Of a stretch of DNA of 29,242 nt, positions 1 through 29,242 are shown in pieces. This DNA is from a virus. Numbering within the stretch: position 1 is the first letter of the stretch; every line of letters begins with the position of its first letter. A program made the position numbers and the translations under genes. The notes below the pieces were generated by a model that was not told the DNA's origin, made no database searches, and worked only from the letters and a program-made list of their open reading frames with translations. The stretch is from IMG/VR virus record IMGVR_UViG_3300044858_003202, positions 1 to 29,242 of that record. One strand, 5' to 3'.

Positions 1-42
1 GTGCCGCCGCCCGGTGCGCTTTAACGCACCCACGTCGTCCTA

Positions 43-17287: not shown

Positions 17288-17349
17288 TGGTTTTTGCCTT
17301 TGCTTTGCTGTTCTTCTTCGTGTTGGCGCTGATGCCCGAGGCTCGAAGA

Positions 17350-17625
17350 TTAGCCCGACGACTGATCGCGCACTTGATCAGCCAATCCGATGATGAACTC
17401 CGCGTACGCATGCGCAGCTGATTTCAGCTCGACAGTCGCGAGGATCATGTCGAGCGCTATCGCTGCGCCCTCTTGTGTCTTTTGGTTATCGTCCTCGCGA
17501 AGCTGAACCATGAGGTCTTCAAGCACGCTAAGATGTGTGCTGGGGATGAGCTGCGAGATCGATACGATGCGGTTCAGCTCCTCGGCGACATCGATCAGCA
17601 CGGTTTGCATGGGCAGATCTCTCAA
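17350..17625 (-). CDS. Small hypothetical protein with TTG start
   Basis: A 91-residue, largely helical protein of unknown family. It begins LRDLPMQTVLIDVAEELNR when read from a TTG at 17625. That start has a near-perfect AGGAGG six bases upstream and overlaps the stop of the Sak4-like gene (TTGA). The ATG five codons later is too far from the ribosome site. The centre (LEDLMVQLREDDNQKTQEG) is acidic. It belongs to the recombination operon by position. No motif indicates its role. Confidence 0.68.
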   Translation of the reverse strand: MRDLPMQTVLIDVAEELNRIVSISQLIPSTHLSVLEDLMVQLREDDNQKTQEGAAIALDMILATVELKSAAHAYAEFIIGLADQVRDQSSG

Positions 17626-18428
17626 GCTTCGCCTCCTAGTTTTCGGATCAGGTCGCCAAGGTGCGGCGGCTCGTAAGGATCGAGCTTGCCACTGCGGTCC
17701 TTGATCGGAAAGGTGCCTTTGATGTGGGCATTGCCGACATCAGGCGAGCACAAGAACACGCGCGTCGGCGCGTCGTCGCCGTCGAACGTGACCATGTGCA
17801 GGGCGATCACCTCATCAACGATGGGCGGGATCTCCTTTGCCGCCTTCTGCCCGTCGATCTGCAGGCCCCAGAAGGAGCGCTTGAAATCATCGACGGTCTC
17901 TTCAAGGACGCCAACCATGACGACGTTCTTGGTCTTCGCGTGCTGCAGCTGCGTGATCCAGCTGATCATCTCGCGACCAAGGAGGCCATAAGCGCCGAGC
18001 AGATTGGGCGCGCCCTGCGCATTGTAGGCCTCGGGCTGCTGCTGCGCCCACACGAGGCACAGGCGCGCGGCGACCGTGATGCTATCGACAAAGTACGTCC
18101 GGTACTTGTCGAGCTGCCCGTCGTCGCCGAACTCGGACACGACGTGTTCGTAGTGAGCAGCACCGTACACCTTGTCTTCGGTGAGGTTCGGGTTTGCGCC
18201 ACCCAGGAAGCACGCGAGATCGCGGCATTCCTTCCATGTGCGAGCGCGCACGCTATCGACCGGCACATCTCGCACCGAGAGATCGCCAGCTTCTAAGTCC
18301 CAGAACAACGTGGTCTCTGGGTTAAGGGTGCGCAGCAGCGACGTCTTACCGACACCACTACGACCGCCGATCAGGATCTTGGGAGCGCCGCGTTCGGCGA
18401 GACGCTCGTCTGCTGTGATGATCTTCAT
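17622..18428 (-). CDS. Sak4-like RecA-type ATPase (recombinase)
   Basis: A 268-residue AAA_24/Sak4-type ATPase. Walker A is GGRSGVGKTS (21-30), TLFWDLEAGDLSV follows, and the Walker B strand is YRTYFVDSIT (about 109-118). A later helical part (LGREMISWITQLQHAKTKNV) and VVMVGVLEETVDDFKR complete the core. Sak4-type proteins anneal or pair single strands together with an SSB, and a DUF669-like gene follows closely. Its ATG overlaps the stop of the helix-turn-helix gene upstream (ATGA). A generic phage ATPase of unknown use is the alternative. Confidence 0.8.
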   Translation of the reverse strand: MKIITADERLAERGAPKILIGGRSGVGKTSLLRTLNPETTLFWDLEAGDLSVRDVPVDSVRARTWKECRDLACFLGGANPNLTEDKVYGAAHYEHVVSEFGDDGQLDKYRTYFVDSITVAARLCLVWAQQQPEAYNAQGAPNLLGAYGLLGREMISWITQLQHAKTKNVVMVGVLEETVDDFKRSFWGLQIDGQKAAKEIPPIVDEVIALHMVTFDGDDAPTRVFLCSPDVGNAHIKGTFPIKDRSGKLDPYEPPHLGDLIRKLGGEA

Positions 18429-18652
18429 TGGTCGTCCATCTCCTTTAGGATCTTCGCCGCCGCTACGATGCGACCGACCGACGTTTGGCGCTTGCCCCTG
18501 ATGATCGACGGCAGCGTGCGTGTGTCGCCGAAGATCGTTTTGGAGACGGCCTTGAGGGTGGTCTTACGTTTTTTGGCTGTGGCCCGCGCGTCAGCGACGA
18601 ACCGGGTGAGTGCTGCGTTGAGCAGCTCTTGTGTGGTGTAGTCTTGATGCAT
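18425..18652 (-). CDS. Small helix-turn-helix regulator, first gene of the leftward operon
   Basis: A 75-residue protein from the ATG at 18652. It has an N-terminal helix (DYTTQELLNAALTRFVADAR), a basic linker (AKKRKTTLKAVSKTIFGDTR) and RTLPSIIRGKRQTSVGRIV, which together look like a compact HTH or Cro-like DNA-binding domain. It is the promoter-proximal gene of the leftward series, the usual place for a phage regulator. No Shine-Dalgarno precedes this ATG, and the predicted start of transcription lies only a few bases away, so a leaderless mRNA is plausible. A start 13 codons earlier would lie inside the promoter. Confidence 0.65.
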   Translation of the reverse strand: MHQDYTTQELLNAALTRFVADARATAKKRKTTLKAVSKTIFGDTRTLPSIIRGKRQTSVGRIVAAAKILKEMDDQ

Positions 18653-18790
18653 GGGACGGGCGCTATGCGGGAGGCTGTGGCCCCCAGTCAACCCCCAATC
18701 TGAAAGATATCCACAGGCAAGGAGGCCACAGCCTCTTTACTCTTCCTCAACCCACAAGCTATAGGGCTCGCCCTGCAAAGGAGCACAAGC
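18653..18790. promoter_or_regulatory. Divergent promoter region with 12-bp inverted repeat
   Basis: Control region between the two main transcription directions. Rightward: TTTACT (18736-18741), 18-bp spacer, TATAGG (18760-18765), then AAGGAG and ATG at 18791. Leftward: TTGACT (complement of 18686-18691), 18-bp spacer, CATAGC, with a start a few bases before the ATG at 18652. The perfect 12-bp inverted repeat GAGGCTGTGGCC (18671-18682) / GGCCACAGCCTC (18724-18735) puts one arm in the leftward spacer and the other directly upstream of the rightward -35. Between the arms lies ATATCCACA (18707-18715), one mismatch from a DnaA box. A lysis/replication-type switch is inference. Confidence 0.6.
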
Positions 18791-19036
18791 ATGACCGAAG
18801 CAGACCTTAAGGCCGTCGCCGACCGCGCGGCAAAGCAAACCGAAAGCCTGAACAAGACAGCATACCCAGGATGCCGGGAGATGCTCGCGCGCGCCCTGGA
18901 GAATGTTGACTATTTCACTCAGGAGAAGACAGTCAGCCTCAGTGGGGCTCGGCACTGGATCGTCCAGGCCAAGCTGGAGCTTGATCACATGCACACCGCC
19001 CTCGTTCGGGCCGAAACATCAACACTGGAGGGCTGA
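18791..19036 (+). CDS. Hypothetical protein, first gene of the rightward arm
   Basis: An 81-residue helical protein of unknown family (DLKAVADRAAKQTESLNKTA, then ARALENVDYFTQEKTVSLSG and KLELDHMHTALVRAETSTLE). AAGGAG lies seven bases upstream of the ATG, and the promoter region described at 18653-18790 drives it. The GcrA-like gene starts two bases after its stop, so the two are cotranscribed and it may act with that regulator. Confidence 0.7.
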   Translation: MTEADLKAVADRAAKQTESLNKTAYPGCREMLARALENVDYFTQEKTVSLSGARHWIVQAKLELDHMHTALVRAETSTLEG

Positions 19037-19037
19037 G

Positions 19038-19706
19038 ATGAGCGCATATTCCGCAGGCCAGATCGACAAGCGCGCGGCTGCGCCGCCGAAAGAGCAAGAA
19101 CGCAAACGCACAACCAACTATCCGTGGGACGCCGAGCGCGACGCGTTCGTGTACGAGCAAGCGAGGCTCGGCGCGTCCGCCGGTAAGATCAGCAAGATGC
19201 TGGGCCAGCGATGGCCGAACGACATTCCGCCAAGCCGCAACGCCGTCGTCGGCAAGCTGTCGCGGGCGAAGGGTGACCGCCCACCTGTGAGGGATAAAGG
19301 TGGTCGCCCTAAGCCTAAGAGCAGCTACTTTAAGATCGATCACAGCGGGTCCACCGCGCCGACGCCGGTAAACTCCGAGGCGCTACCGCCATCGAACGTC
19401 GTTCGACTGGACGTCCAGACCAAGGAAGCAGCCCGCAAGCTGGGGCCACTTGCTAAGTCCGACGGCAACCCCCTCTCCATCACGGACATCCGGCACGGCC
19501 TCTGCCACTACCCTATTGGGGATCCGAAGCTCCCAGGCTTCGCCTACTGCGGGCGCGCTGCGTTCGTTAAACCATGCCGCCGTGTCGGTGAGGATGGCGT
19601 GACGCCCTACTGCGAAGACCACCGGCTCCTCGTCTATGACCCAAAGGAAGATCAGCGCCGAGACAACGAGCTTAAGCGCATCAAGCAATCCCTCAACCGC
19701 TACTAG
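19038..19706 (+). CDS. GcrA-family cell-cycle transcription regulator
   Basis: A phage homologue of GcrA, which in Caulobacter-type bacteria binds sigma70-RNA polymerase and activates promoters with methylated GANTC sites. The 222-residue product has the N-terminal HTH (WDAERDAFVYEQARLGASAG, then SRNAVVGKLSR at 66-76, matching GcrA TRNAVIGKVHR). A variable basic and proline-containing linker follows. The C-terminal signature is CHYPIGDP (156-163), FAYCGR (168-173) and PYCEDH (190-195). It is longer than typical GcrA (about 170) because of 27 extra N-terminal residues and insertions. GGAGG precedes the ATG. Longer readings upstream lie inside the preceding gene. It may redirect host transcription. 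Confidence 0.88.
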   Translation: MSAYSAGQIDKRAAAPPKEQERKRTTNYPWDAERDAFVYEQARLGASAGKISKMLGQRWPNDIPPSRNAVVGKLSRAKGDRPPVRDKGGRPKPKSSYFKIDHSGSTAPTPVNSEALPPSNVVRLDVQTKEAARKLGPLAKSDGNPLSITDIRHGLCHYPIGDPKLPGFAYCGRAAFVKPCRRVGEDGVTPYCEDHRLLVYDPKEDQRRDNELKRIKQSLNRY

Positions 19707-19715
19707 GAGACCCCC

Positions 19716-20216
19716 ATGAAGACCCTCTCACCAATGCAGTACATCATGATCGCTGCGCTCTTCATCGTTGTCGGCATCAGCTTCTTCGCATGGCTCTGGC
19801 CAAGCACCCCGCGACCGGACCCCCGCGATGCGCCCGACGGCTATACTGCCGTCTACGATCAGCGCCGGGGCTATCACATCCGGCACGAAGAGCGCGTCGG
19901 TTGGTACGAGGTTGAGTTCGCCAGCTCCGACGGCCAGCCTATCGAGCTGACCGTATCGGTCCTCTTCCGTGCGGATCCTCAGCAAGAGATCGATCTCGAC
20001 CGGATGATCGAGGGATCGGTCTCGACTTACACCCGCGACGCCTTTGTCTCGGTCGGATCCCGCCCGGCGTTTACCGCCGAAGCCATCAGATCCGGCGAAG
20101 CCACCGGCCCCCTCCTCGCTGCGGTTTATGCGACCATCGCCGGGCCGCTCCATAGCGAAGAGGGCGTGATCATCTTGGACATGTCGGTCGTCGGACCCCA
20201 GGCCCAGGAGGGTTGA
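19716..20216 (+). CDS. Membrane-anchored small SPFH/band-7-like protein
   Basis: A 166-residue protein with an N-terminal membrane helix (YIMIAALFIVVGISFFAWLW) followed by an exported or cytoplasmic domain. The domain has VGWYEVEFASSDGQPIELTV, SVLFRADPQQEIDLDRMI, a helix ending RPAFTAEAIRSGE, and a final strand GVIILDMSVVG. This order recalls a minimal prohibitin/stomatin (SPFH) fold, though it is shorter than family members and lacks their long coiled coil. The resemblance is by eye only. It starts nine bases after the GcrA-like stop. The SNF2 promoter's -35 overlaps its stop codon. Confidence 0.55.
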   Translation: MKTLSPMQYIMIAALFIVVGISFFAWLWPSTPRPDPRDAPDGYTAVYDQRRGYHIRHEERVGWYEVEFASSDGQPIELTVSVLFRADPQQEIDLDRMIEGSVSTYTRDAFVSVGSRPAFTAEAIRSGEATGPLLAAVYATIAGPLHSEEGVIILDMSVVGPQAQEG

Positions 20217-20248
20217 CACCTGGATGTCCAGTTGATATCCAGACCGCC
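20213..20248 (+). promoter_or_regulatory. Promoter and operator 1, before the SNF2 helicase
   Basis: Consensus -35 TTGACA (20213-20218), 17-bp spacer, -10 TATCCA (20236-20241). The palindrome CTGGATGTCCAG occupies 20220-20231 within the spacer. A half site TATCCAG follows. The expected transcription start falls at or next to the ATG at 20249, and no Shine-Dalgarno is present, so the mRNA may be leaderless. The -35 TTG is not a start codon, although it opens a longer reading frame. Confidence 0.75.
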
Positions 20249-22369
20249 ATGACAAATCAGATCACAATCGAGTACGTCGAGCGCGCCGCCCGTTGGGAGG
20301 CGCGCTTTGCGTACAATCCTGCTCTCATTCAAACCGCCAAGGGTCTCAAGTTTCGCTGGGATCCGAGCGCTCGCGTATGGTGGACGAAGGACGAGCTGGC
20401 CGCTCAAGCCTTCAAGGGTGGCGACGCCCTCGACGTCTGGAACGTGGCCGAAGCTGCGCGGATCGAGAAGGTTAACGCCGAGCGCGCGGCTCAAGCCGCA
20501 GCTGCCGCCGGTAGCCTTGAGGCATCGCGCGCGACTGACGCGATGATCGACATCCCATCCAACGCAGGCCTCAACTACCTGGGCTATCAGCGCGGCGGCA
20601 TTGCCTACGCGATGGAGCGCGACGCCACCCTGATCGGCGACGAGATGGGTCTGGGTAAGACGATCCAAGCCATCGGCGTCAGCAACGCTGACGCTTCGGT
20701 GCGCAAGGTGCTGGTGATCTGTCCAGCGTTCCTGAAGATCAACTGGCAGCGCGAATGGCGTAAGTGGTGCGTGAAGCACCTGAACGTCTCGGTCGTCGGT
20801 AAGAAAGGCTGGGTCGCCGAGTGCGATTTCGCCGACGTCGTCATCATCAACTACGACATCCTGCACAAGTATCGCGCCGAGATCGATGCGCGTCAGTGGG
20901 ATCTGCTCGTCGTTGACGAAGCGCATTACCTCAAGAACCCGAAAGCCAAGCGCACCAAAGCGGTACTTGGATCCAAGGAGCGCGGCCAGGAAGCGACCGC
21001 TGGTCTCGTGGCCCGCCGTCGTGTATTCATGACCGGCACGCCAATCCTCAACAGACCGATTGAATTGTGGCCGCTGGTGCAAGCTCTCGATCCGCAGGAT
21101 CTGGGCCGCAATTTCTTCGCCTTCGCGAAGCGCTACTGCGCCGCCTACAATAACGGCCACGGCTGGGATTTCACCGGCAGCTCTAACCTCGATGAGTTGC
21201 AGCAAAAGCTGCGCGCCAAGTTCATGGTGCGCCGCCTGAAGGCCGACGTGTTGGCTGAGCTGCCGCCGAAGCGCCGTCAGATCGTACCGCTCACGTCACC
21301 TGAGATTGCCAAGATCGTCGGCAAAGAAGGCACCAGCGCTGCGCGCTACGAAGCGCTGATGGCTGAGCTGGCTGTCGCCGAGGCGCTCGCCCTGGTCGAT
21401 AGCAAGTACGAGGCGCGTGTCGCTGAGCTGCAAGATGAGACTGGCTTTGCCTTCGAAGAGATGGCCCAGGCTCGTCACGACATCGCTCTCGCGAAGGTTG
21501 GCGCTGCCATCGAGTACATCCGCGAAGCCATCGAAGAGCTGGGTTGTGTGGCGATCATGTGCCACCACCAAGATGTCGCCGAGCAGATTGCCGAAGCGTT
21601 CGCCGATCTCGGCAGCGTCGTCGTCCACGGCAGTAAGAGCGTCGAGGCCCGCCAAGCTGCGGTCGATGCCTTCATGACCGGCCAAGCCAACGTCTTCATC
21701 GGCACCATCAAGACCGCCGTCGGTTACACGATCACGCGCACTGCCAGTATGTTCTTCGTCGAGCTTGACTGGGTGCCGGGCAACGTCAGTCAGGCTGAAG
21801 ACCGCATTCACCGCATCGGTCAGGTTGGCAGCGTACTCATCCAGCACCTCGTGGCCGATGGCAGCATCGATGCGCGCATCGCCAACGTCCTTGTCGATAA
21901 GCAGGATGTGATCGACCGCGCCCTCGACATCGAAGGCGACGCCATCGTGGCAGAGCCGAAGCTGGAAAGCTTCGCGCCAGTCTCGCAGGCCACCGTCGCC
22001 AAGGGTTGGGAGGCCGTGCAGGAGCGCGAGTTCACGAAGCGGGTGTACAGTGACAGCGACCGTGTCAGCGCCGCCTACGCCCTGCGTGCGTCGAACCTAG
22101 AGCGTGTCGCCAAGGTGCTGACGCAGAGCCAGATCGATGCGGTCCACACCGCCGTGCGTATGCTGAACGACGCCAACTACGACAGCGCCACCGAGCGCAA
22201 TGGCGTCGGCTACAATCAGGCCGACACCGGCATCGGTCGCGCTCTGGCCCGCATGGAAACGCTGACGCCGGAAGCCGCTGCTCTCGGCGCTCACATCGTG
22301 CGCAAGTACAAGGGCCAGTATGGCCGCGATCTCTACGATCAGATCTTCACCGACGGAGGCAAGGCATGA
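20249..22369 (+). CDS. SNF2-family DEAH helicase
   Basis: A 706-residue superfamily 2 ATPase of SNF2/SWI type. Motif I is IGDEMGLGKT (about 129-138), motif II LLVVDEAHYLKN (DEAH near 223), motif III FMTGTP. The C-terminal motor has VFIGTIKTAVGYT and the motif VI form QAEDRIHRIGQVGS. Phage members are thought to act in replication or recombination by remodelling protein-DNA complexes. I choose the ATG at 20249 because the upstream TTG is the promoter -35. About 125 N-terminal residues precede the motor (a HARP-like strand region followed by an alanine-rich helix), and a C-terminal helical part follows it. It is coupled to the next gene (ATGA). Confidence 0.88.
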   Translation: MTNQITIEYVERAARWEARFAYNPALIQTAKGLKFRWDPSARVWWTKDELAAQAFKGGDALDVWNVAEAARIEKVNAERAAQAAAAAGSLEASRATDAMIDIPSNAGLNYLGYQRGGIAYAMERDATLIGDEMGLGKTIQAIGVSNADASVRKVLVICPAFLKINWQREWRKWCVKHLNVSVVGKKGWVAECDFADVVIINYDILHKYRAEIDARQWDLLVVDEAHYLKNPKAKRTKAVLGSKERGQEATAGLVARRRVFMTGTPILNRPIELWPLVQALDPQDLGRNFFAFAKRYCAAYNNGHGWDFTGSSNLDELQQKLRAKFMVRRLKADVLAELPPKRRQIVPLTSPEIAKIVGKEGTSAARYEALMAELAVAEALALVDSKYEARVAELQDETGFAFEEMAQARHDIALAKVGAAIEYIREAIEELGCVAIMCHHQDVAEQIAEAFADLGSVVVHGSKSVEARQAAVDAFMTGQANVFIGTIKTAVGYTITRTASMFFVELDWVPGNVSQAEDRIHRIGQVGSVLIQHLVADGSIDARIANVLVDKQDVIDRALDIEGDAIVAEPKLESFAPVSQATVAKGWEAVQEREFTKRVYSDSDRVSAAYALRASNLERVAKVLTQSQIDAVHTAVRMLNDANYDSATERNGVGYNQADTGIGRALARMETLTPEAAALGAHIVRKYKGQYGRDLYDQIFTDGGKA

Positions 22370-22587
22370 GCGAGCTTGACTATAAGGGGCGGAAGATCCG
22401 CCGCCGACCTACGCATTTCGTGGCGGTCATCGTAGCCCACGAGAATGCATTCACCACGCGCAAGATTGCGTGCGGCCTGGACGAAGAGAACGCCCTGATC
22501 GCGACTGAGGTGAAGGAGCAAGTCACCTGTAAGCGTTGCCAGCGTTCGCCTTACTTTGATCCGGCGCTCTATCGGGGGCGCTACTAA
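22366..22587 (+). CDS. Small hypothetical protein with CKRC motif
   Basis: A 73-residue protein. It begins with a basic strand (YKGRKIRRRPTHFVAVIVA), then HENAFTTRKIACGLDEENAL, then VTCKRCQRSPYFDP. The CKRC pair with an earlier Cys and His could bind zinc; the pattern I..CG...V.CKRC recurs in short phage proteins of unknown role. Its ATG overlaps the SNF2 stop, and its TAA overlaps the next ATG. Confidence 0.7.
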   Translation: MSELDYKGRKIRRRPTHFVAVIVAHENAFTTRKIACGLDEENALIATEVKEQVTCKRCQRSPYFDPALYRGRY

Positions 22588-22736
22588 TGAACGAACGCGA
22601 GAAGCAGATCGTGAACGAACTGATCACCGCCATCGAGCGTCAGCTCAGCGGGACAGGGCGCGGCATCCCACCATCAGAACGGCTTGAAGAAGCCATCGCC
22701 GCTGCGCGTGCTATCATTGAGGGAGAGAAGGCATGA
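22587..22736 (+). CDS. 49-residue helical protein
   Basis: A short gene starting within TAATG and ending within ATGA. The product has two helices (EREKQIVNELITAIERQL and ERLEEAIAAARAIIEGEKA) joined by GTGRGIPPS. The two-sided overlap and regular amphipathic pattern support translation. No family is recognised. Confidence 0.6.
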   Translation: MNEREKQIVNELITAIERQLSGTGRGIPPSERLEEAIAAARAIIEGEKA

Positions 22737-22918
22737 AGCTTGAAGATCTCGGCACGCCCGGCGAGCGCCGCGCCGCCCGCGCACTAATTGAGACCCCAGG
22801 CGTCTGGGTTCTCAGCCGCTACACCTACCGAGCCGTCGAGCTTCTCTTTCAGGAAGTCGGCAGGGAGGTGCCGCGCAATGTCTATTACGACGTACGCACG
22901 CCGGAGGTGGAAGCATGA
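22733..22918 (+). CDS. Small hypothetical protein
   Basis: A 61-residue protein (KLEDLGTPGERRAARALIET, then LSRYTYRAVELLFQEVGREV). Its start overlaps the previous stop as ATGA, with GGGAGAG a few bases upstream, and its end overlaps the next start as ATGA. The fold is probably one or two helices. The function is unknown. It is part of the SNF2 transcript. Confidence 0.65.
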   Translation: MKLEDLGTPGERRAARALIETPGVWVLSRYTYRAVELLFQEVGREVPRNVYYDVRTPEVEA

Positions 22919-23109
22919 CCATCGATCAGAATACTTTTAAGGCGCTGCTGAAGCAGCTCTCAGAGGAAGATCTAGAGCGCTGGGCGCAGGATCTTGCGCT
23001 CCACGGGTCAGGTGGTATCCGACAAGACAAGGACGGTAACGTAAGCTATGTGCCGTTTCTTGAGATCTATCGGATGGAACTGGAGGCCCAGAGTGAAACG
23101 AAGCATTAA
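22915..23109 (+). CDS. Small hypothetical protein
   Basis: A 64-residue acidic protein (FKALLKQLSEEDLERWAQDL, then GGIRQDKDGNVSYVPFLEIY). The pattern is a helix followed by a G..QDKDGNV.Y beta turn. It is coupled at its start by ATGA, with GGAGG upstream. The last 17 bases overlap the next gene. No family is recognised. Confidence 0.65.
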   Translation: MTIDQNTFKALLKQLSEEDLERWAQDLALHGSGGIRQDKDGNVSYVPFLEIYRMELEAQSETKH

Positions 23110-23299
23110 GCGCGAGCGGACGCAGGCTCAGATCGATGCTGAGCTGCGCCGCGAAGAGACCAGCACGAAGACGCTGGTGCGTCACAGCGCCGAGAGCGCT
23201 GCCGCCCTGGCAAAGCTGCGTCGCGTATTCAGCGAGAGCGACCCAGAGATCCTGCGCATGGCGCTGGTAGAGATGGCATCGAAGAAGAGGGGCCGATAA
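23093..23299 (+). CDS. Small basic helical protein
   Basis: A 68-residue protein from a GTG with GGAGG six bases upstream. The sequence is Lys/Arg- and Glu-rich (RERTQAQIDAELRREETSTK, then AALAKLRRVFSESDPEILRM, ending SKKRGR) and helical. It might be a small nucleic-acid or protein-binding helper. It ends in TAATG with the following ribbon-helix-helix gene, so the two are translationally coupled. No family is recognised. Confidence 0.62.
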   Translation: MKRSIKRERTQAQIDAELRREETSTKTLVRHSAESAAALAKLRRVFSESDPEILRMALVEMASKKRGR

Positions 23300-23520
23300 T
23301 GATCAAGAAGTCCATGCGTATTAACGGCCTGCGCACCAGCCTCGCTCTGGAGGCCGTCTTCTGGGATGGCCTTGAGCAGCTCGTTGATGAGCGCAAGACC
23401 ACGCCGCCAAAGCTGGTCGCGCAGATCGGCGAGACGCGCACTGACCCCACGATGTCGCTGGCCGCTGCAGTGCGCGTCTACCTTTACTCTCACGCGCGAG
23501 GCAGGAGCCAGAGCCGGTAG
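23299..23520 (+). CDS. RHH_4-type ribbon-helix-helix DNA-binding protein
   Basis: A 73-residue protein matching the alphaproteobacterial RHH_4 type. The ribbon strand is KKSMRINGLRTSLALE; helix 1 is AVFWDGLEQLVDE; helix 2 with LVAQIGETRTDPTMSLAAAVRVYLY completes the fold. Dimers of such proteins bind short palindromes through the paired strands. The gene closes the SNF2 transcript, and the next palindromic operator begins five bases after its stop. That makes it the leading candidate for the regulator of the seven right-arm operators (inference). A long insertion-free helix pair and short basic tail (HARGRSQSR) fit the family. Confidence 0.78.
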   Translation: MIKKSMRINGLRTSLALEAVFWDGLEQLVDERKTTPPKLVAQIGETRTDPTMSLAAAVRVYLYSHARGRSQSR

Positions 23521-23524
23521 GCAT

Positions 23525-23571
23525 CTGGATGTCCAGTTGACTATTAAACGCTGCCGTGGTAAGGCTCCTCG
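23525..23571 (+). promoter_or_regulatory. Operator 2 and weak promoter before the SprT-like gene
   Basis: CTGGATGTCCAG at 23525-23536 is followed by TTGACTATTAAACG. Two promoter readings are possible: -10 TATTAA (23542-23547) with a poor -35, or -35 TTGACT (23537-23542) with a weak TAAGGC at 23560. This is the only one of the seven operators without a clean promoter, so it may need an activator or act on read-through from the upstream genes. Confidence 0.55.
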
Positions 23572-23587
23572 CCTGACGACGAGGAGC
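23564..23587 (+). other. Hairpin covering the SprT-like ribosome site
   Basis: GCTCCTCG (23564-23571) pairs perfectly with CGAGGAGC (23580-23587) around an eight-base loop. The 3' arm contains the GAGGAG that serves the ATG at 23596. In RNA this would hide the ribosome site, so translation could be conditional. If transcription began at the later of the two candidate promoters, the 5' arm would be partly lost. Confidence 0.55.
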
Positions 23588-23595
23588 AAGACCAC

Positions 23596-24333
23596 ATGGC
23601 ACGAGCAAAAGACACACAACGCAGCAAGCTCTACAAGGCAGAGCGCGCTGTGTTTTCGTACTACCCTGGCCGCGTACTGAGCGGCGCGCCGGGCGCTACG
23701 CCCGGTGCAATGAAGCTCGGCAACCGCGTGTCGGTTGAAGAGATGGAAGCGCTGCACTGGAAGATCGGGATGTCGAAGCGCCTGAACACGAAGTATCGTG
23801 GCGGTCGCCCAGGTCGCTCGGTCACGGTGAAGATCGACACCCGCCGCAAGCGCGGTGGCGCTGCCAGCTACGGCGGCTACGTCAAGTACGGCCCGCCTGC
23901 GATGCTCGATTGGATCGTGTGCCACGAGATGGCTCACGAGCTGAACGACATCTTCTCGACCAACGAGAACCCGTACGAGCGTGCGTCGCACGGCTGGCGC
24001 TTCGCCGCGATCTACCTCGACGTCGTGAAGTTCATCATGGGCAAGGAAGCTCACGATCAACTGAAGGCCAGCTTCAAGGCCCACGGCGTCAAGTTCACCA
24101 AGCCGGTGAAGCGTGCGGTGAAAGCAGCGACGCCAGCTCAGATCGCGGCTCGCGCCGCGTTCGCCGAGAAGGCTCGGGCTCGCGCCGAAGCGAAGCGCAT
24201 CGCGAAGTGCGAGGCGTGGATCGAAGCGCAGACCACGTTCTACCTTAACGACGCGAAGCGCTGGAACGTCCCGATGACCGAGGCCGAGGCGCGAGCCAAA
24301 GCCTGGAAGTACGTCCCGTCAAACTTGCTGTAG
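23596..24333 (+). CDS. SprT-like zinc metallopeptidase
   Basis: A 245-residue protein with the SprT/Spartan-type active site VCHEMAHEL (His110, Glu111, His114) and a downstream SHGWRF whose His132 is the likely third ligand. The preceding strands (RSVTVKIDTRRKRGGAASYG) match the edge-strand region of such peptidases. SprT-type enzymes degrade proteins bound to or crosslinked to DNA. A long basic Ala/Lys helix (residues 170-205) and a C-terminal segment of about 35 residues follow. No zinc ribbon is visible. The ribosome site GAGGAG is nine bases upstream within a hairpin. The unit ends in a strong terminator. Confidence 0.8.
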   Translation: MARAKDTQRSKLYKAERAVFSYYPGRVLSGAPGATPGAMKLGNRVSVEEMEALHWKIGMSKRLNTKYRGGRPGRSVTVKIDTRRKRGGAASYGGYVKYGPPAMLDWIVCHEMAHELNDIFSTNENPYERASHGWRFAAIYLDVVKFIMGKEAHDQLKASFKAHGVKFTKPVKRAVKAATPAQIAARAAFAEKARARAEAKRIAKCEAWIEAQTTFYLNDAKRWNVPMTEAEARAKAWKYVPSNLL

Positions 24334-24337
24334 AAAG

Positions 24338-24366
24338 AAAGGCCCCGCTTCGGCGGGGCCTTTACT
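24338..24366 (+). terminator. Terminator with UUCG loop, fused to the next promoter
   Basis: AAAGGCCCCGC / GCGGGGCCTTT, an 11-bp stem closed by a TTCG tetraloop, then ACTTTT. The final TTT of the stem is also the start of the TTTACT that serves as -35 of the following promoter, so termination and re-initiation signals overlap. Confidence 0.85.
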
Positions 24367-24389
24367 TTTCTGGACATCCAGATTATACG
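24361..24389 (+). promoter_or_regulatory. Promoter and operator 3
   Basis: -35 TTTACT (24361-24366), 17-bp spacer, -10 TATACG (24384-24389). The palindrome CTGGACATCCAG fills 24370-24381. The bases after the -10 (ATGGGCTCAC) are nearly identical to those of operator 4 and similar at operators 5 and 6. Confidence 0.75.
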
Positions 24390-24412
24390 ATGGGCTCACG
24401 AGGAGCACACAG

Positions 24413-24715
24413 ATGCAAGCACAAGCATGGCACAACCGCGTAGTCACCAAGCTGATGGTCTCGGCCCGAGGCGATCTGATGTTGACTTCGCCCGGCGGCG
24501 ATCTCGCCACTCGTCGCTATTGGGACGAGAACAACAAGGAGCTTCCCCAGGAAGTCTGCCGACCGATGGAGATCCTGGCACGCATCAAGCCTGACGGGTG
24601 GACGCTCACGCCCGAGGGTTGCCAGTACATTCTGGAGAACTGCCCACCGCAGGACGTTCGCGAAGCGAACAAGCTGGTGAAGGTGCGAGACGCACTGGAT
24701 CTCTCCCGCCGGTAA
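24413..24715 (+). CDS. Hypothetical protein, operator-3 unit
   Basis: A 100-residue protein of unknown family. The first part is beta-like (VVTKLMVSARGDLMLTSPGG); the rest is mixed, with WTLTPEGCQYILENCPPQDV and a helical end (ANKLVKVRDALDLSRR). Two cysteines lie nine residues apart. GAGGAG sits eight bases before the ATG. It is a complete single-gene unit with its own promoter, operator and terminator, which suggests an accessory, moron-like gene. Confidence 0.75.
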   Translation: MQAQAWHNRVVTKLMVSARGDLMLTSPGGDLATRRYWDENNKELPQEVCRPMEILARIKPDGWTLTPEGCQYILENCPPQDVREANKLVKVRDALDLSRR

Positions 24716-24721
24716 ACTGAA

Positions 24722-24750
24722 AAGCCCCGCTGAAAGGCGGGGCTTTACTT
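24722..24750 (+). terminator. Terminator fused to the operator-4 promoter
   Basis: AAAGCCCCGC (24722-24731) and GCGGGGCTTT (24738-24747) form a 10-bp stem with loop TGAAAG. The trailing TTTACTTTT again doubles as the -35 TTTACT of the next promoter. Confidence 0.82.
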
Positions 24751-24773
24751 TTCTGGACATCCAGATTATATGA
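24745..24773 (+). promoter_or_regulatory. Promoter and operator 4
   Basis: -35 TTTACT (24745-24750), 17-bp spacer containing CTGGACATCCAG (24754-24765), -10 TATATG (24768-24773). The 31-base stretch from the -35 onward is almost identical to that of operator 3, which suggests recent duplication of the module between unrelated genes. Confidence 0.75.
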
Positions 24774-24797
24774 TGGGCTCACCACGGAGTTAGAGCG

Positions 24798-25139
24798 ATG
24801 ATCGACCAAAACATTGACGAACGCGCGGCGGCTGATTGGGGCGCTTTGTCCTGCCGCGAGCAGGACGCGGTGAACGAGGGCGCTTTCGGGCAGGCGAGCG
24901 ATGCGGTTCGCCGGTTCATGGATCGCGGCCTGGACTTGTCGGAAGCGCAGGAGCGCGCGGCGGCTGACTTCGACGCCATCGCGAAGGAAGCACGAGAGCG
25001 TGAGGTGTACGAAGCACGCCGCGTGATGACGCTGAAGCGCGCATCATTAGTTGCCGCCGCTCGCAAGCGCATGGTTGCGGCACGCACAACCGCGTTCGTC
25101 TGCGGCTTGTGCTCCTCGTTCGTCTGGGACGTGGAGTAA
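24798..25139 (+). CDS. Hypothetical helical protein, operator-4 unit
   Basis: A 113-residue, highly charged, alanine-rich helical protein (DERAAADWGALSCREQDAVN, then SEAQERAAADFDAIAKEARE and RRVMTLKRASLVAAARKRMV). It ends with a hydrophobic, cysteine-containing segment (AFVCGLCSSFVWDVE) in which CGLC could bind metal. GGAG precedes the ATG. It is a single-gene unit with its own operator and terminator. No family is recognised. Confidence 0.72.
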   Translation: MIDQNIDERAAADWGALSCREQDAVNEGAFGQASDAVRRFMDRGLDLSEAQERAAADFDAIAKEAREREVYEARRVMTLKRASLVAAARKRMVAARTTAFVCGLCSSFVWDVE

Positions 25140-25149
25140 ATCAGAGAGC

Positions 25150-25181
25150 AAACGCCCCATCGAAAGGTGGGGCGTTTGACT
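25150..25181 (+). terminator. Terminator fused to the operator-5 promoter
   Basis: AAACGCCCCA (25150-25159) and TGGGGCGTTT (25168-25177) form a 10-bp stem with an eight-base loop. The distal TTTGACTTTG provides the T-rich tail and, at 25176-25181, the TTGACT used as -35 by the next promoter. Confidence 0.8.
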
Positions 25182-25204
25182 TTGTCTGGATGTCCAGTTA
25201 TACA
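25176..25204 (+). promoter_or_regulatory. Promoter and operator 5
   Basis: Near-consensus promoter: TTGACT (25176-25181), 17-bp spacer, TATACA (25199-25204). The palindrome is in the opposite central orientation, CTGGATGTCCAG (25186-25197). The initiation region reads ATGGGCC, as at operators 3 and 4. Confidence 0.8.
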
Positions 25205-25229
25205 ATGGGCCTCCACAACGAGGTGCAAC

Positions 25230-25616
25230 ATGCAAGTTCAAGACGCAGCCAGCTTCATCTTCGCCGGTAACGCCACGGTCACCGTGGTCTCCAAGAAGAC
25301 CCAAGCTCGTTACACCTACCGGGTCCGCAAGGCCAAAGATGGCGACACGTTCTTCGCCTCTCTCCTCGCTGGCCCCAACAACGAGGTAGACTACGTCTAC
25401 CTCGGCCTCGCTTCACAGCGCGGCGTTCGTCTCACCGCCAAGTCCCGCATGAACGCGGACAGCCTGCCGGTGAAAGCACTGGACTTCGCGATCCGCAATC
25501 CGAACCACGCGGATCTGGAGATCCACCACGAAGGCCGGTGCGGTCGCTGCGCTCGGAAGCTCACCGTTCCCGAGAGCATCAAGACCGGCCTCGGTCCCGA
25601 GTGCGCCAAGCGCTAA
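25230..25616 (+). CDS. DUF6011-like protein
   Basis: A 128-residue protein. The C-terminus carries a short zinc-binding-type signature GRCGRCARKLTVPESIKTGLGPEC, split here as GRCGRCARKLTVPES and then IKTGLGPECAKR. This G.C..C.R.LT.P.SI..G.GP.C pattern is what I know as DUF6011. The N-terminal 85 residues are beta-rich (ATVTVVSKKTQARYTYRVRK, VDYVYLGLASQRGVRLT) and may be a separate small fold. The domain is widespread in phages and its role is unknown. GAGGTG precedes the chosen ATG; earlier in-frame starts lie within the promoter. Confidence 0.78.
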   Translation: MQVQDAASFIFAGNATVTVVSKKTQARYTYRVRKAKDGDTFFASLLAGPNNEVDYVYLGLASQRGVRLTAKSRMNADSLPVKALDFAIRNPNHADLEIHHEGRCGRCARKLTVPESIKTGLGPECAKR

Positions 25617-25622
25617 CCTGAG

Positions 25623-25647
25623 AGCCCCGCCGCAAGGCGGGGCTTTT
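25623..25647 (+). terminator. Terminator after the DUF6011-like gene
   Basis: AGCCCCGCC / GGCGGGGCT, a 9-bp stem with a GCAA tetraloop, followed by TTTGCTTT. Unlike the three preceding terminators it is not followed by the palindromic operator. Confidence 0.85.
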
Positions 25648-25670
25648 GCTTTAAGTAGAGGAGACATCAC

Positions 25671-25859
25671 ATGACCAGCGAAGATTGGGCCGACGAAGAA
25701 GAGACGTGTGGCGTCGCCATCGCCGAGCGCATCGCTCGCGCCCACGGCACCACACTGGCCGCGCTACAAGGCACGGGCGATGACGCCGGGTGGGTTGTGG
25801 TCGAGGTGAAGGATGGCATGGTCAGCCGTCGCCAGCTGCTGGAAGCGCTGGGCTATTGA
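25671..25859 (+). CDS. Small acidic hypothetical protein
   Basis: A 62-residue acidic protein (DWADEEETCGVAIAERIARA, then GWVVVEVKDGMVSRRQLLEA). The fold is probably one helix plus a beta hairpin. GAGGAG lies eight bases before the ATG. It lies between a terminator and the next promoter but has no operator or evident promoter of its own, so it may depend on terminator read-through. Its stop codon TGA is embedded in the -35 (TTGACC) of the next unit. No family is recognised. Confidence 0.68.
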   Translation: MTSEDWADEEETCGVAIAERIARAHGTTLAALQGTGDDAGWVVVEVKDGMVSRRQLLEALGY

Positions 25860-25884
25860 CCTATCTGGACATCCAGATTATACA
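25856..25884 (+). promoter_or_regulatory. Promoter and operator 6
   Basis: TTGACC (25856-25861), 17-bp spacer with CTGGACATCCAG (25865-25876), TATACA (25879-25884). This is a strong sigma70-like match. The -35 overlaps the last codons of the preceding gene. Confidence 0.8.
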
Positions 25885-25916
25885 ATCGGCCAACGACAAC
25901 ACACGGAGCTGACCAC

Positions 25917-26456
25917 ATGACCACACATTTCCAAGCTATCGCACCCGACGGCACAATCCTCCGTCGCTCATCGCAGAGCCGTACGTACGCGTACATGACT
26001 GCGGTGCGCAGCAAGCGCGAACCAAACAAGTGGACCGACGCCGGTTGGGCGTCGCGCCTGGATCTCGCGAACGCGGTCACAAGCCGCTACGCTAAGAGCG
26101 GCAATTTTGTCGAGGCGAAGACGCTGAAGGTTGAAGTCATCACGAACGCGAAGGCGAACGAGATCAAGAAGAGCAAGGTGACCGACGCCGATAAGCGCGC
26201 GACGAAGGTTGCCGCTAAGCTTCGCAAAGCTGGCATCATCGCATCGAAGAGCGGCACGCATGTTCGCGTTCACGTCCCGCTCATCAATCTCGGCGACGAC
26301 CATCCGGCCCGCGTTCCTGGCTGGTATTTCGATTACTTTAGCGAGGGCTCAAAGATCAACCGCCGCAGCCAACGCATCGCGCGGCTCATTGCGCGCCACG
26401 CAGCGGCGCAAGTCGGTTACCAGCTCGACAAGAATTGCTGGACCGTTGTTCTCTAG
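25917..26456 (+). CDS. Hypothetical basic protein, operator-6 unit
   Basis: A 179-residue lysine- and arginine-rich protein. The N-terminus (TTHFQAIAPDGTILRRSSQS) looks beta-like. The middle is basic and helical (NEIKKSKVTDADKRATKVAA, KLRKAGIIASKSGTHVRVHV). The C-terminus has RRSQRIARLIARHAAAQVGY and a final strand NCWTVVL. The basic helices suggest nucleic-acid contact. GGAG precedes the ATG. It has its own operator and terminator. No family is recognised. Confidence 0.73.
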   Translation: MTTHFQAIAPDGTILRRSSQSRTYAYMTAVRSKREPNKWTDAGWASRLDLANAVTSRYAKSGNFVEAKTLKVEVITNAKANEIKKSKVTDADKRATKVAAKLRKAGIIASKSGTHVRVHVPLINLGDDHPARVPGWYFDYFSEGSKINRRSQRIARLIARHAAAQVGYQLDKNCWTVVL

Positions 26457-26479
26457 GTCGCTCCCGACCAACTAACTTG

Positions 26480-26506
26480 AAGCCCCGCGAGAGCGGGGCT
26501 TTTTTT
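26480..26506 (+). terminator. Terminator after the operator-6 unit
   Basis: AAGCCCCGC / GCGGGGCTT, a 9-bp stem with a GAGA tetraloop, followed directly by a long T-run. This is the most classical of the right-arm terminators. Confidence 0.9.
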
Positions 26507-26511
26507 GTACG

Positions 26512-26541
26512 CTGGACATCCAGAGCGAGTTGCGTTATAGA
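26512..26541 (+). promoter_or_regulatory. Promoter and operator 7
   Basis: CTGGACATCCAG (26512-26523) overlaps the -35 here: TGGACA (26513-26518) is one base from TTGACA. A 17-bp spacer leads to TATAGA (26536-26541). So the operator is shifted one position relative to the others but still covers a core promoter element, as expected for repression by exclusion. Confidence 0.72.
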
Positions 26542-26577
26542 ATGCGCCGCCCCGGAGAGGGCAAGGAGCTGACCAAC

Positions 26578-27297
26578 ATGATTAACTTTAAAGATCTGAA
26601 GGGCCACCAATGGGCCTCCATCGGCATCGGCGTCTTGATCGTCGTCGCTGTCATCACCGTCGAGACACGCTCCATCGTGGGTGCGCTTCACGAGAACGAC
26701 GGTTTCGCTGGCATCAGCTGGGCCATGATCTCGGGCATCTTCGCTTTGCTCGCTGTCGTGTCCTTCGCAGTCGCTGGCTCGCTGAAGGAAGACTACCGTG
26801 GCCACGTCCGCGCTCGCGCCTTCCCGGCTCGCGTGCTGGCCATCGCCCTAGCGATTGTCCCGGCGTCGTTCTTCGGTTCGGCTGTGAAGGCCGACAACAT
26901 GCAGGACGAGTGGCTCGCCTACTCGACGCCTGCAATGGCGGGCCACCCGTCGTCGTACCAACTGGATCTCGACGTTGTCGAAGACCCCCAGTCGGATGTG
27001 ATGGAGCGTAACGCTGCTCGCTGGCGCATCCAAGAAAAGACGCCGGGCTCAATCGCTCTGTCTGTTCTGGACTTTGAGTTCTGGATGGCGATCTTCTTCC
27101 AGGCCATCCTACTCTTCGGTGCCGACGTGCTTCGCATTCCGGCCCCGATGACGAAGGCAGAGTTCGAGCACCTGAAGCGCAGCGCCGCTGCGAAGCAAGG
27201 TGCGGAAACCCGCCGCCGTCGCGCTGCTGAGAAGAAGGCAGCTGAGAAGAAGAAGGCGGGCGGCCTCAAGATCTTCGCTGGCGGTCGCAAGGACTAA
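26578..27297 (+). CDS. Four-helix membrane protein with basic tail
   Basis: A 239-residue membrane protein from the ATG at 26578 (AAGGAG nine bases upstream). Four hydrophobic helices are visible: WASIGIGVLIVVAVITV, WAMISGIFALLAVVSFAVAG, RVLAIALAIVPASFFGSAV and WMAIFFQAILLFGADVL. A polar loop of about 65 residues lies between helices 3 and 4. The C-terminal 50 residues are strongly basic (RRRRAAEKKAAEKKKAGG), likely cytoplasmic. A host-envelope modifying or exclusion role is conceivable for such an accessory unit but not shown. It is the last gene of the rightward arm. Confidence 0.78.
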   Translation: MINFKDLKGHQWASIGIGVLIVVAVITVETRSIVGALHENDGFAGISWAMISGIFALLAVVSFAVAGSLKEDYRGHVRARAFPARVLAIALAIVPASFFGSAVKADNMQDEWLAYSTPAMAGHPSSYQLDLDVVEDPQSDVMERNAARWRIQEKTPGSIALSVLDFEFWMAIFFQAILLFGADVLRIPAPMTKAEFEHLKRSAAAKQGAETRRRRAAEKKAAEKKKAGGLKIFAGGRKD

Positions 27298-27317
27298 GGC
27301 CAGCGCCCACCAAAGTG

Positions 27318-27347
27318 AAACGCCCCGGCTAATCGCCGGGGCGTTTT
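27318..27347 (+). terminator. Terminator at the end of the rightward arm
   Basis: AAACGCCCCGGC / GCCGGGGCGTTT, a 12-bp stem with loop TAATC and a following TTTTGCATTT. It separates the rightward units from the convergent DnaK unit and may work in both directions. Confidence 0.88.
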
Positions 27348-27444
27348 GCATTTCAGGCACCGCTTCTGCGCTAGCGTTTGCCGCGCTCTCTTTCTGAGGA
27401 CGGATCCTCGTCAGATCGGCGCGCGACAGCGCGCGGCGCAGGCG

Positions 27445-27579
27445 TCAGATAAATGTGATGAGACCGTCGATCCAGGGCGCGAGTTTATTCCAACCAAAAT
27501 AGACGACGACGGAAACGGCCAGCCACTTGAGCACAAAGTTCAAGGCGTTGGTGAGCGACGCTTGGTCTAGCTTGATCAT
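27445..27579 (-). CDS. 44-residue membrane peptide coupled to the DnaK-like gene
   Basis: A short leftward gene whose ATG overlaps the stop of the DnaK-like gene (ATGA). The product starts with a polar helix (MIKLDQASLTNALNFVLKWL), then has the hydrophobic segment AVSVVVYFGWNKLAPW and the end DGLITFI. This gives one probable membrane helix. Coupling to an HSP70 suggests a partner or a small membrane factor. A holin-like role is an alternative. No family is recognised. Between it and the terminator at 27347 lies about 100 bp with only a short GCGCGC inverted repeat. Confidence 0.62.
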   Translation of the reverse strand: MIKLDQASLTNALNFVLKWLAVSVVVYFGWNKLAPWIDGLITFI

Positions 27580-29117
27580 GCTGCTGCTTCCTCTTCATCA
27601 ATGTCACGCAGGCCCTGGATCTCGCTGGCCGTCATGCCGGTGTCGGCGTGAACGGAATGCGTGACCTCGGTCTTCGTGGCGGGGTTGCGAGCGGTGACCG
27701 TGAGCATCCCGTCGTCGTTGACGTCGAGCTGCACGCGGAGCAGGGGTTCGCTCTTCACCTGTTCCTGCATGTCGTTGACGATCAGCGTCGCGACGCGGCG
27801 CTGGCCGTGATAGACGCGCACCGCTGCCTCTGCAGCTTCGCGGTTCGCAATGCCGAAGACTTTCTCCTCGCGCGCAGGCAGCGGCGTGTTAGCCCTGATG
27901 AGCGGGATGAGAGCGCCGCTGCCCACCTGAACCGAGAACGGCATCGTCGTGTTGTCAGTCAGCGCCACGCTCTTCAGCGTACCGGCAAGAGCAGCACCTT
28001 GCAGCGCGCAGCCAAGAGCGACGGCGGCGATGGGGTCGATGCGGCGCGACGGCACACGTCCGAAGATCTCGCGCACCAGCTCACCGACGGCAGGCGTCCG
28101 CGTCATGCCGCCGACCAGCACCACCTCATCGATGTCGCGCACATCAACCTTCGCAGCGCGCAGCGCCTCGCGGCACGGGCCGCGCGTCCGATCGATCAGG
28201 TCGAGCACCATGTTCTCATAGTCGGCGCGGTCGATGGTCTCATCGAGATCCAGCAGCAGCGGCCTGTGCGCAATGTTCCGAGCGTAGATCCGGTGAGCGC
28301 CTTGAGCGCTGAGGCTTTCCTTCGCCTTCTCGGCAGCGAGGCGCACGCGGTTGCGTGCGCTTGGGTCGTCGCGAAGATCGATGCCGTGCTTCTCGCGGAA
28401 GCGCTGCAGCAGCCAGCTCATGATGCGCTGGTCGAAGTCTTCGCCACCGAGAAAGGGATCGCCAGCTGTGGCCAGTGGGCGGAAGCGCTGACCGGCGATC
28501 TTCAAGATCGTGATGTCAAACGTGCCACCGCCGAGATCGTAGATCGCGATGGTGCGATTGCTCGCGCGGTCCACACCGTATGCCACCGCAGCAGCCGTCG
28601 GCTCGGGCAGCAGGCGCACAGCCTCCAGCCCGCCGAGCTTGGCCGCGCGCCGGATCGCTTCCTTCTGATCGAGATCGAAGTGAGCGGGTACGCCGACGAC
28701 GCAGCGGTTGACGTCTTCACCGAGTGTCTGGCGTGCGGTCTCACGCAGCTTGGCGAAGACGTGGGAAAGGAGATCGACCGGATCGTGGATCTTGTCAGGT
28801 CCGCGCACGAACGCTTCGCCCTGCGGCCCTGGCACGATGTCGTACGCAACGAGCTTGGCCCATTCGAGGATCTGCGGATCGTCGGCCTTGCGCCCGAGCA
28901 AGCGCTTAAGTCCGGTGAACGTGTACTCGGGATTGGTCTCAAGCTGATCGCGGGCGATAGCTCCCACGACGATCTCACCGTTCTGCGCGATGCTCACCAC
29001 GGTGGGGATCACACGCTCGCGCTCGTCCAACGCCAGGATCCTGGCCGCACCCTGATCGAGGGCGGCGACGACGCTGGTGCTGGTGCCGAGATCGATGCCT
29101 ACGATGCGGTCGGCCAT
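27576..29117 (-). CDS. HSP70/DnaK-type chaperone lacking the lid domain
   Basis: A 513-residue HSP70. The nucleotide-binding domain is complete: GIDLGTSTSVVA (7-18), VGVPAHFDLDQKEAIRRAA (141-159), LLPEPTAAAVAYG, IYDLGGGTFDITI (192-204) and VLVGGMTRTPAV (333-344). A short substrate-binding beta domain follows (about 385-490, with NTPLPAREEKVFGIANREA). The protein then stops, where DnaK (about 638) continues into an alpha-helical lid. The usual hydrophobic linker is degenerate (LKSVALTDNTTMPFSV). AAGGAG precedes the ATG. No DnaJ or GrpE is seen. HSP70 genes are rare in phages; capsid or replication-complex folding is a plausible use. Confidence 0.88.
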   Translation of the reverse strand: MADRIVGIDLGTSTSVVAALDQGAARILALDERERVIPTVVSIAQNGEIVVGAIARDQLETNPEYTFTGLKRLLGRKADDPQILEWAKLVAYDIVPGPQGEAFVRGPDKIHDPVDLLSHVFAKLRETARQTLGEDVNRCVVGVPAHFDLDQKEAIRRAAKLGGLEAVRLLPEPTAAAVAYGVDRASNRTIAIYDLGGGTFDITILKIAGQRFRPLATAGDPFLGGEDFDQRIMSWLLQRFREKHGIDLRDDPSARNRVRLAAEKAKESLSAQGAHRIYARNIAHRPLLLDLDETIDRADYENMVLDLIDRTRGPCREALRAAKVDVRDIDEVVLVGGMTRTPAVGELVREIFGRVPSRRIDPIAAVALGCALQGAALAGTLKSVALTDNTTMPFSVQVGSGALIPLIRANTPLPAREEKVFGIANREAAEAAVRVYHGQRRVATLIVNDMQEQVKSEPLLRVQLDVNDDGMLTVTARNPATKTEVTHSVHADTGMTASEIQGLRDIDEEEAAA

Positions 29118-29242
29118 TACGCGTTCTCCTTGTTATTTTCGTAGTACTCACGGGCCAGCGGGTCATCGAGGTCATCCTCAGTTACCGGCTCCTCTGGTTG
29201 GGCCTCAGGAGCCCCAGGATCGACGTTGTCGGTTTCCGGCGC
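29117..29242 (-). CDS. C-terminal part of an acidic protein (runs off the window)
   Basis: The last 41 codons of a leftward gene that enters from beyond the right edge. The visible tail is acidic and proline-rich (PETDNVDPGAPEAQPEEPVT, then EDDLDDPLAREYYENNKENA). Its TAA shares one base with the DnaK-like ATG (TAATG), and the AAGGAG of that gene lies in its last codons, so the two are coupled. The acidic end could be a chaperone-interaction or virion tail segment, but the family cannot be judged from the fragment. Confidence 0.7.
   Translation of the reverse strand, partial: APETDNVDPGAPEAQPEEPVTEDDLDDPLAREYYENNKENA

Follow-up and report, generated by a model that had tools for sequence, protein, structure and literature searches.

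A palindrome on core promoters in the right arm of a tailed-phage record and its candidate repressor

Palindromic sites on the right-arm promoters

The virus record IMGVR_UViG_3300044858_003202, analyzed here over its complete length of 29,242 nucleotides (termed the window), carries in its right arm an array of a 12-bp palindrome, CTGGA-YR-TCCAG, most copies of which lie on the cores of rightward promoters. The array was confirmed as real and far above chance, and its sites are probably the operators of one repressor. To the whole reading, in which one phage repressor acts on the right-arm promoters and a ribbon-helix-helix protein of the family RHH_4 is the likeliest binder, we assign a probability of roughly 0.45.

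Exact matches to CTGGAYRTCCAG were found at eight positions (19407, 20220, 23525, 24370, 24753, 25186, 25865, and 26512), against 0.007, 0.007, and 0.015 expected under Markov models of order 1, 2, and 3, respectively. With up to two mismatches allowed, 13 copies were observed against 3.96 expected, and 13 was reached in 0 of 100 shuffles. Seven of the eight are of the form CTGGA(CA/TG)TCCAG, with CA in the centre at 24370, 24753, 25865, and 26512 and TG at 20220, 23525, and 25186. These seven had been listed in a first-pass annotation of the sequence, and all of them proved to be exact and intergenic, with the position 24754 corrected to 24753. The eighth copy, CTGGACGTCCAG (19407–19418, + strand), has a CG centre, lies within the gene of a GcrA-like protein without a promoter, and is possibly a chance match; it falls outside the CA/TG pattern, and the earlier statement that the other 20 kb hold no copy is true for the CA and TG forms. 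All copies are confined to 19407–26523. On a gene map drawn by hand from the list of open reading frames (ORFs), seven of the eight are entirely non-coding, while non-coding DNA makes up 8.0% of the window (binomial probability 1.6e-7). A similar density of copies in coding regions, named beforehand as an outcome that would speak against operators, was not observed, only one of the eight being coding.

Six of the seven CA/TG sites sit on core promoter elements of the + strand, five of them in 17-bp spacers and one overlapping a -35 hexamer. The spacer sites are 20220–20231 in TTGACA-17-TATCCA (20213–20241, the promoter of the putative operon running from a helicase gene to the RHH_4 gene), 24370–24381 in TTTACT-17-TATACG (24361–24389), 24753–24764 in TTTACT-17-TATATG (24744–24772), 25186–25197 in TTGACT-17-TATACA (25176–25204), and 25865–25876 in TTGACC-17-TATACA (25856–25884). 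At 26512–26541, the TGGACA of the operator itself (26512–26523) forms the -35, followed by 17 bp and TATAGA, as had been proposed. The copy between the RHH_4 and SprT-like genes (23525–23536, + strand) has a weak promoter or none, as no convincing pair of hexamers was found, in agreement with the weaker promoter described there before. Equal or better promoter scores were obtained at 0.7% of 4000 random places for each of 20220, 25186, 25865, and 26512, at 3.8% for each of 24370 and 24753, at 8.6% for 23525, and at 76% for 19407. The pattern TT[GT]AC-17..19-TA[TC] has seven matches on both strands of the window; five are palindrome promoters, and the remaining two are the promoter at 18736, which is free of the palindrome, and a match on the - strand at 15386. 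At 20220, the -35 is perfect but the -10 poor, and a second, imperfect half-palindrome (20231–20242) was seen behind the operator. The supposed fixed placement stands for the position on core elements at six of the seven sites but not for the exact spacing: the distance from the palindrome centre to the -10 is 10.5 bp at 20220, 11.5 bp (uncertain) at 23525, 8.5 bp at 24370, 24753, and 25865, 7.5 bp at 25186, and 18.5 bp at 26512.

This geometry bears on the mode of action. The five spacer sites lie upstream of the inferred transcription start and thus would act as DNA, not as RNA. The CA and TG centres are one base step seen from opposite strands, and both orientations occur at almost equal spacing (25186 and 25865), as would suit a binder with symmetry. 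Near-consensus promoters with a spacer of the usual length, on which a bound protein would block the polymerase, favor repression over activation, and a distance to the -10 that varies between 7.5 and 18.5 bp fits blocking better than a fixed contact. The first-pass annotation had assumed one regulator, most simply a repressor; judged from the sequence, this still appears to be the best reading, as the sites are intergenic and occupy the cores of the best-scoring sigma-70 promoters.

Four of the palindrome promoters come directly after a terminator-like hairpin on the same strand. The 3' end of the hairpin overlaps the following -35 at three of them (24338–24363, 24721–24746, and 25149–25178), and the fourth hairpin (26479–26502) stands just 5' of the operator at 26512. 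Moreover, the stretches 24337–24399 and 24719–24782 are 89% alike over 65 bp, indicating a duplication. The repeats could be read from these observations as the residue of duplicated or exchanged terminator-promoter cassettes, in which the 12-mer has no binder. We regard this as very improbable, because 20220, 23525, 25865, and 26512 carry the 12-mer without a mismatch despite differing flanks, and because the position on the core promoter is kept by six of the seven sites.

A repressor model and the RHH_4 protein

We propose that CTGGA-YR-TCCAG serves as an operator and that one phage-encoded repressor binds the cores of the rightward promoters in the right arm. The near-consensus promoters would fire with the host sigma-70 polymerase shortly after entry, and the accumulating repressor would then cover the spacer or the -35 and close all the units in a single step. 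The repressor's own operon would be shut as well, constituting negative feedback. At least three candidate regulators are encoded in the window, namely the RHH_4 protein, the GcrA-like protein, and a small protein resembling helix-turn-helix (HTH) regulators. The RHH_4 protein, which would be expressed from the operon of the operator at 20220 and is predicted to have an Arc-type-like fold, is the leading candidate.

The RHH_4 protein (73 amino acids; 23299–23520, + strand) matched Pfam PF13467 with an E-value of 2.9e-17 and a score of 62.9 bits against a cut-off of 25, so that a member of this DNA-binding family is encoded. Its gene is part of the row of genes that follows the 20220 promoter (a putative operon) and ends 4 bp before the site at 23525. 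At the sequence level, the protein was matched to PDB 3kk4 with an E-value of 0.0057. The AlphaFold2 model, built from a 38-sequence alignment, has a predicted local distance difference test (pLDDT) score of 92.8 and comprises two strands and three helices in a single chain. VIA-align, applied to re-examined Foldseek matches only, aligned 73 residues of the model with 3kk4 (Z 9.0, root-mean-square deviation 2.2) and 70 with the permuted single-chain Arc 1u9p (Z 6.0, root-mean-square deviation 3.0), the latter with a Z below 8, which may reflect merely a common arrangement. The Foldseek search with the model gave nothing at an E-value of 0.001 or better. On the grounds of position, family, and modeled fold, and not of covariation, we tentatively regard the RHH_4 protein as the likeliest binder of the CTGGA sites.

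RHH_4 is scarce in phages and common in the Alphaproteobacteria. Only one of 37 related virus records encodes it, namely a near-identical copy of this virus, and tblastn with the protein found no match in 50,697 phage records, while 262 of 385 sampled Alphaproteobacteria genomes contain a match. A Xanthobacter plasmid (L186) carries three TCGTA-(TG/CA)-TACGA palindromes at 577–636, no more than ~75 bp upstream of its RHH_4 gene; these share the 5-2-5 plan and the centre of the phage sites, and no further copy occurs in the 144,762 bp. RHH_4 genes of Azospirillum and Indioceanicola are preceded by TGTGAAG-N2-CTTCACA palindromes; as the two ribbons differ, these may be the sites of a different regulator.

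A number of observations weigh against the model with RHH_4 as its repressor or against the array itself. The RHH_4 gene is not adjacent to most of its supposed targets. The palindromes of the Xanthobacter plasmid also face a divergent small ORF, RHH-like by eye but without a Pfam family. At least one 5-2-5 palindrome was present upstream and downstream of RHH_4 genes at 32 and 37 of 80 genome loci, at 14 and 7 of 23 viral loci, and at 4 and 6 of 8 plasmid loci, respectively, and two or more identical ones were found upstream at 3 of 147 loci (L186, L278, and L279) and downstream at 2, in a set in which the gene start was assumed at three loci and the upstream DNA was short at some loci near contig ends. 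A stricter promoter scan listed none of the palindrome promoters and found one promoter in the region against 2.1 expected. The sites at 24370 and 24753 lie inside the ~65-bp duplication, so the seven sites are not seven independent events. No independent relative retaining the sites was detected among the viral contigs scanned. Finally, the virus sequence is incomplete, and the binder may lie outside the part known.

A 5-2-5 operator as a rule of the RHH_4 family, promising on three plasmid loci, failed on the larger sets, which comprised 80 loci from genomes and 23 from viruses (20 of the latter in detail), 27 out of the 30 closest loci in genomes, and the 147 loci combined.

Other candidate binders

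The small basic protein encoded at 18425–18652 (- strand) is HTH-like by eye, has no Pfam family and no PHROG, and gave a poor model (pLDDT 74.9). Its gene is the first behind the leftward promoter TTGACT-18-CATAGC (18662–18691, - strand) of a divergent pair, which is a usual position of a phage regulator. This pair has an operator of its own, GRGGCCACAGCCTC, present as two exact copies in the window: one (GGGGCCACAGCCTC, 18671–18684) lies in the leftward spacer, and the other (GAGGCCACAGCCTC, 18722–18735) just 5' of the -35 of TTTACT-18-TATAGG, the rightward promoter of the gcrA operon (18722–18765 with the operator, + strand). No CTGGA palindrome accompanies the gcrA operon promoter at 18736. 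The separate operator pair suits the HTH-like protein, and by elimination we infer that the CTGGA sites are left to the RHH_4 or the GcrA-like protein.

The sites could instead be operators of another repressor, be it the HTH-like protein, one of the host, or one that the phage encodes beyond the known sequence. The position of the HTH-like gene and the incompleteness of the genome favor this alternative, and the different operators of the divergent pair speak against the first of the three proteins. For a host regulon, the motif was counted in 190 alphaproteobacterial genomes; it occurred in 107 of them, at most 14 times (in a 6.0-Mb genome), while the reversed control reached 9, which amounts to background and gives no sign of such a regulon, albeit the true host may be outside the sample. 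As to a phage protein encoded nearby, none of the seven ORFs of the adjoining DNA scanned with Pfam belongs to a known DNA-binding family. Altogether, we consider another repressor somewhat unlikely.

The GcrA-like sigma-70 cofactor (223 amino acids; 19035–19706, + strand) is the rival candidate. Its match to PF07750 (E-value 7.6e-13) is above the Pfam cut-off and spans the profile positions 3–153 of 155, and the alignment with PDB 7ye1, Caulobacter GcrA (E-value 6.3e-07), extends into the C-terminal domain and thus covers both domains. GcrA is reported to form a complex with the sigma-70 polymerase and to work at methylated promoters (PMC7403470; PMC7987155). The palindromes may accordingly be imagined as activator sites, to which the phage protein, made from the promoter at 18736, binds in the spacer independently of methylation while its C-terminal domain holds sigma region 2, so that the promoters are opened as a delayed-early class. 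Besides these matches, this is supported by the gcrA operon promoter being, among the near-consensus + strand promoters of the pattern search, the only one without the palindrome; the lack is compatible with either repression or activation. It is also supported by GANTC, the CcrM methylation site, occurring only three times in the window (1763, 2969, and 8164) against 41.5 expected from the highest-order Markov model or 102.5 from composition, which renders host-type GcrA sites unavailable. On the other hand, the palindrome contains no GANTC, near-consensus promoters should need no activator, the distance from the palindrome to the -10 is variable, and other records with GcrA do not share the arrangement (see below for the details). 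Activation by the GcrA-like protein is therefore unlikely in our view.

None of the target promoters contains GANTC, and none of its three copies lies in the right arm. The site is rarer than composition predicts in the related records L111 (5 against 76 expected), L112 (0 against 43), L158 (9 against 36), and G027 (10 against 68). Of the remaining GcrA-encoding records, G002 (232 against 228) and G003 (64 against 81) have about as many copies as composition predicts, and G048 (139 against 209) has a slight deficit. Numerous 6-bp palindromes are likewise missing from the window, so restriction avoidance may account for part of the depletion. An improbable extension of the activator reading has the phage GcrA acquired from a host, a private and unmethylated spacer palindrome replacing methylated GANTC as its site, GANTC purged from the phage genome, and phage genes as the only ones it drives. 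The phiCbK-like phages also encode a GcrA homologue, for which host genes and not a phage palindrome are proposed as the target (PMC3556154). Host GcrA likewise acts at sigma-70 promoters, but with methylated GANTC (PMC7987155), whereas the phage palindrome has no GANTC.

A GcrA match was obtained in 5 of 50 virus records, one of the five being the near copy and three of the 50 having been chosen because a GcrA search had found them, and in 0 of 36 records of another set. The GcrA search of genome contigs yielded 22 stretches, none of them a relative of this virus. No recurrent palindrome above shuffles was detected in the GcrA-encoding records G003, G027, and G048. The GcrA-encoding phage contig G002 (L166–L168) carries ten copies of a different palindrome, TCAGA-N4-TCTGA, between 4157 and 54822, with a shuffle maximum of 7 (n = 5); six of the ten are inside ORFs of at least 100 amino acids and four outside. 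Promoter palindromes as a class trait of GcrA phages were rejected on these four records. Near 1302 in G027 (L161), a promoter-like TTGACG-spacer and a long inverted repeat were seen ~290 bp 5' of the GcrA match.

Occurrence beyond the window

The window encodes genes typical of tailed phages: a terminase, a head-tail adaptor, a primase-helicase, a RuvC-like resolvase, a Cas4-like exonuclease, a Sak4-like protein, and an SNF2-type helicase. From GcrA and RHH_4, we infer an alphaproteobacterial host. A likeness to the dispersed operators of temperate phages had been suggested as well; it found no support, since Phage_integrase was detected in none of three records of this or a near-identical virus (G000, G001, and G025; ~47 kb), which may be fragments and in which other recombinase families were not searched, so the virus may nevertheless be temperate.

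In the search for the motif in related genomes that had been advised earlier, another contig, with 99.7% identity over 15,485 bp and extending 9.4 kb past the right end of the window, proved to carry all eight sites, but no divergent relative with the sites was found. The near-identical contig differs from the window by one base across 14168–29242 and is thus no test of site conservation. The contig G025, with 99.99% identity over 12,368 bp, extends 8.6 kb past the left end, and the ~18 kb that the two contigs add beyond the window ends contain no further site. In the eight scans of viral contigs, the right arm was covered by one near-identical contig (pieces L001, L010, and L038), and L112, 78% alike, matched the left arm only. 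The palindrome in its promoter context was found in 34 stretches of the viral contigs, with more than one match only in this virus. A second pattern scan gave 53 stretches, in which two matches were seen, besides the near copy, only in L364 (one place counted on both strands) and L369 (an unrelated, repeated stretch). As far as the collections searched show, the palindrome system appears to be private to this virus.

Relation to known regulatory systems

Arc, MetJ, and CopG are ribbon-helix-helix repressors that bind short symmetric operators, and the operator of Arc is situated between the -35 and the -10. The RHH_4 model differs from these proteins in having both ribbon strands in one chain, and the present array differs in operator sequence and in its use at multiple promoters. 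Dispersed palindromic operators on early promoters are also known as the conserved inverted repeats (CIRs) of phiC31-type phages, with another sequence, repressor family, and host.

The closest functional likeness may be to the anti-CRISPR-associated (Aca) repressors. Aca1–Aca10 (PMC9410906) resemble the proposed system in that a small phage DNA-binding protein blocks the polymerase at an inverted repeat within the core of the promoter that drives its operon; they differ in being HTH proteins that regulate one acr-aca operon, whereas here the candidate is of RHH_4 and seven places are marked. By analogy, the array may work like an Aca system, but we do not class it as one, the RHH_4 protein not being an HTH protein. 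An early anti-defence regulatory sequence of archaeal viruses, with Aca8 as the proposed repressor (PMC11065993), is alike in that one sequence precedes many small, mostly single early genes, for which a joint shut-off by one viral repressor is proposed. That system has archaeal TATA box and B recognition element (TATA/BRE) promoters and a winged HTH protein, while the present array has bacterial sigma-70 promoters and differs in its sequence and its candidate protein. The stoperators of cluster A mycobacteriophages are similar in that one phage repressor has numerous dispersed sites; they are asymmetric, end elongation, and occur in phages that encode immunity repressors (PMC9283540), in contrast to the palindromes on core promoters studied here. 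Asymmetric sites spread genome-wide, which characterize stoperators, were not seen in this virus, where the sites are palindromic and confined to 19407–26523. The layout as such is familiar; the novelty lies in the tag and in the likely protein. No publication on this motif or on targets of RHH_4 was found in a literature search that left out most subscription journals, and none of the papers that it returned for RHH_4 contained that name.

If the RHH_4 protein binds, the palindrome would be the first DNA target for a family widespread in the Alphaproteobacteria, the early shut-off would be Aca-like but based on a ribbon-helix-helix protein, and the palindrome would serve as a tag for small right-arm genes without a known function, which may be anti-defence genes. 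Should the GcrA-like protein be the binder, the system would represent a captured epigenetic cofactor with a new target.

Genes behind the putative operators

Judged from the sequence features, much of the right arm is a series of small putative units, each with a terminator, an operator-bearing promoter, and a gene; all the following genes are on the + strand. The first gene behind the operator at 20220 encodes an SNF2-type helicase (20249–22369), identified in the Pfam and PHROG searches. Its start codon at 20249 is near the expected transcription start of the 20213 promoter (20236–20249), so the mRNA may be leaderless. The SprT-like protein (23596–24333) is based on a Pfam match below the curated cut-off. 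Neither Pfam nor PHROG matches were found for the 100-amino-acid protein behind 24370 (24413–24715) and the 179-amino-acid protein behind 25865 (25917–26456), and none above the cut-off for the 113-amino-acid protein behind 24753 (24798–25139). The gene behind 25186 (25230–25616) encodes a DUF6011 protein (phrog_20259), and that behind 26512 (26578–27297) a protein of ~240 amino acids, a membrane protein by eye with weak Pfam and PHROG matches only. No acr gene was identified, in searches that did not include an anti-CRISPR library. On the opposite strand, a gene at 27576–29117 is DnaK/Hsp70-like by eye, with phrog_22485 (function unassigned) as its best match (E-value 3.6e-122).

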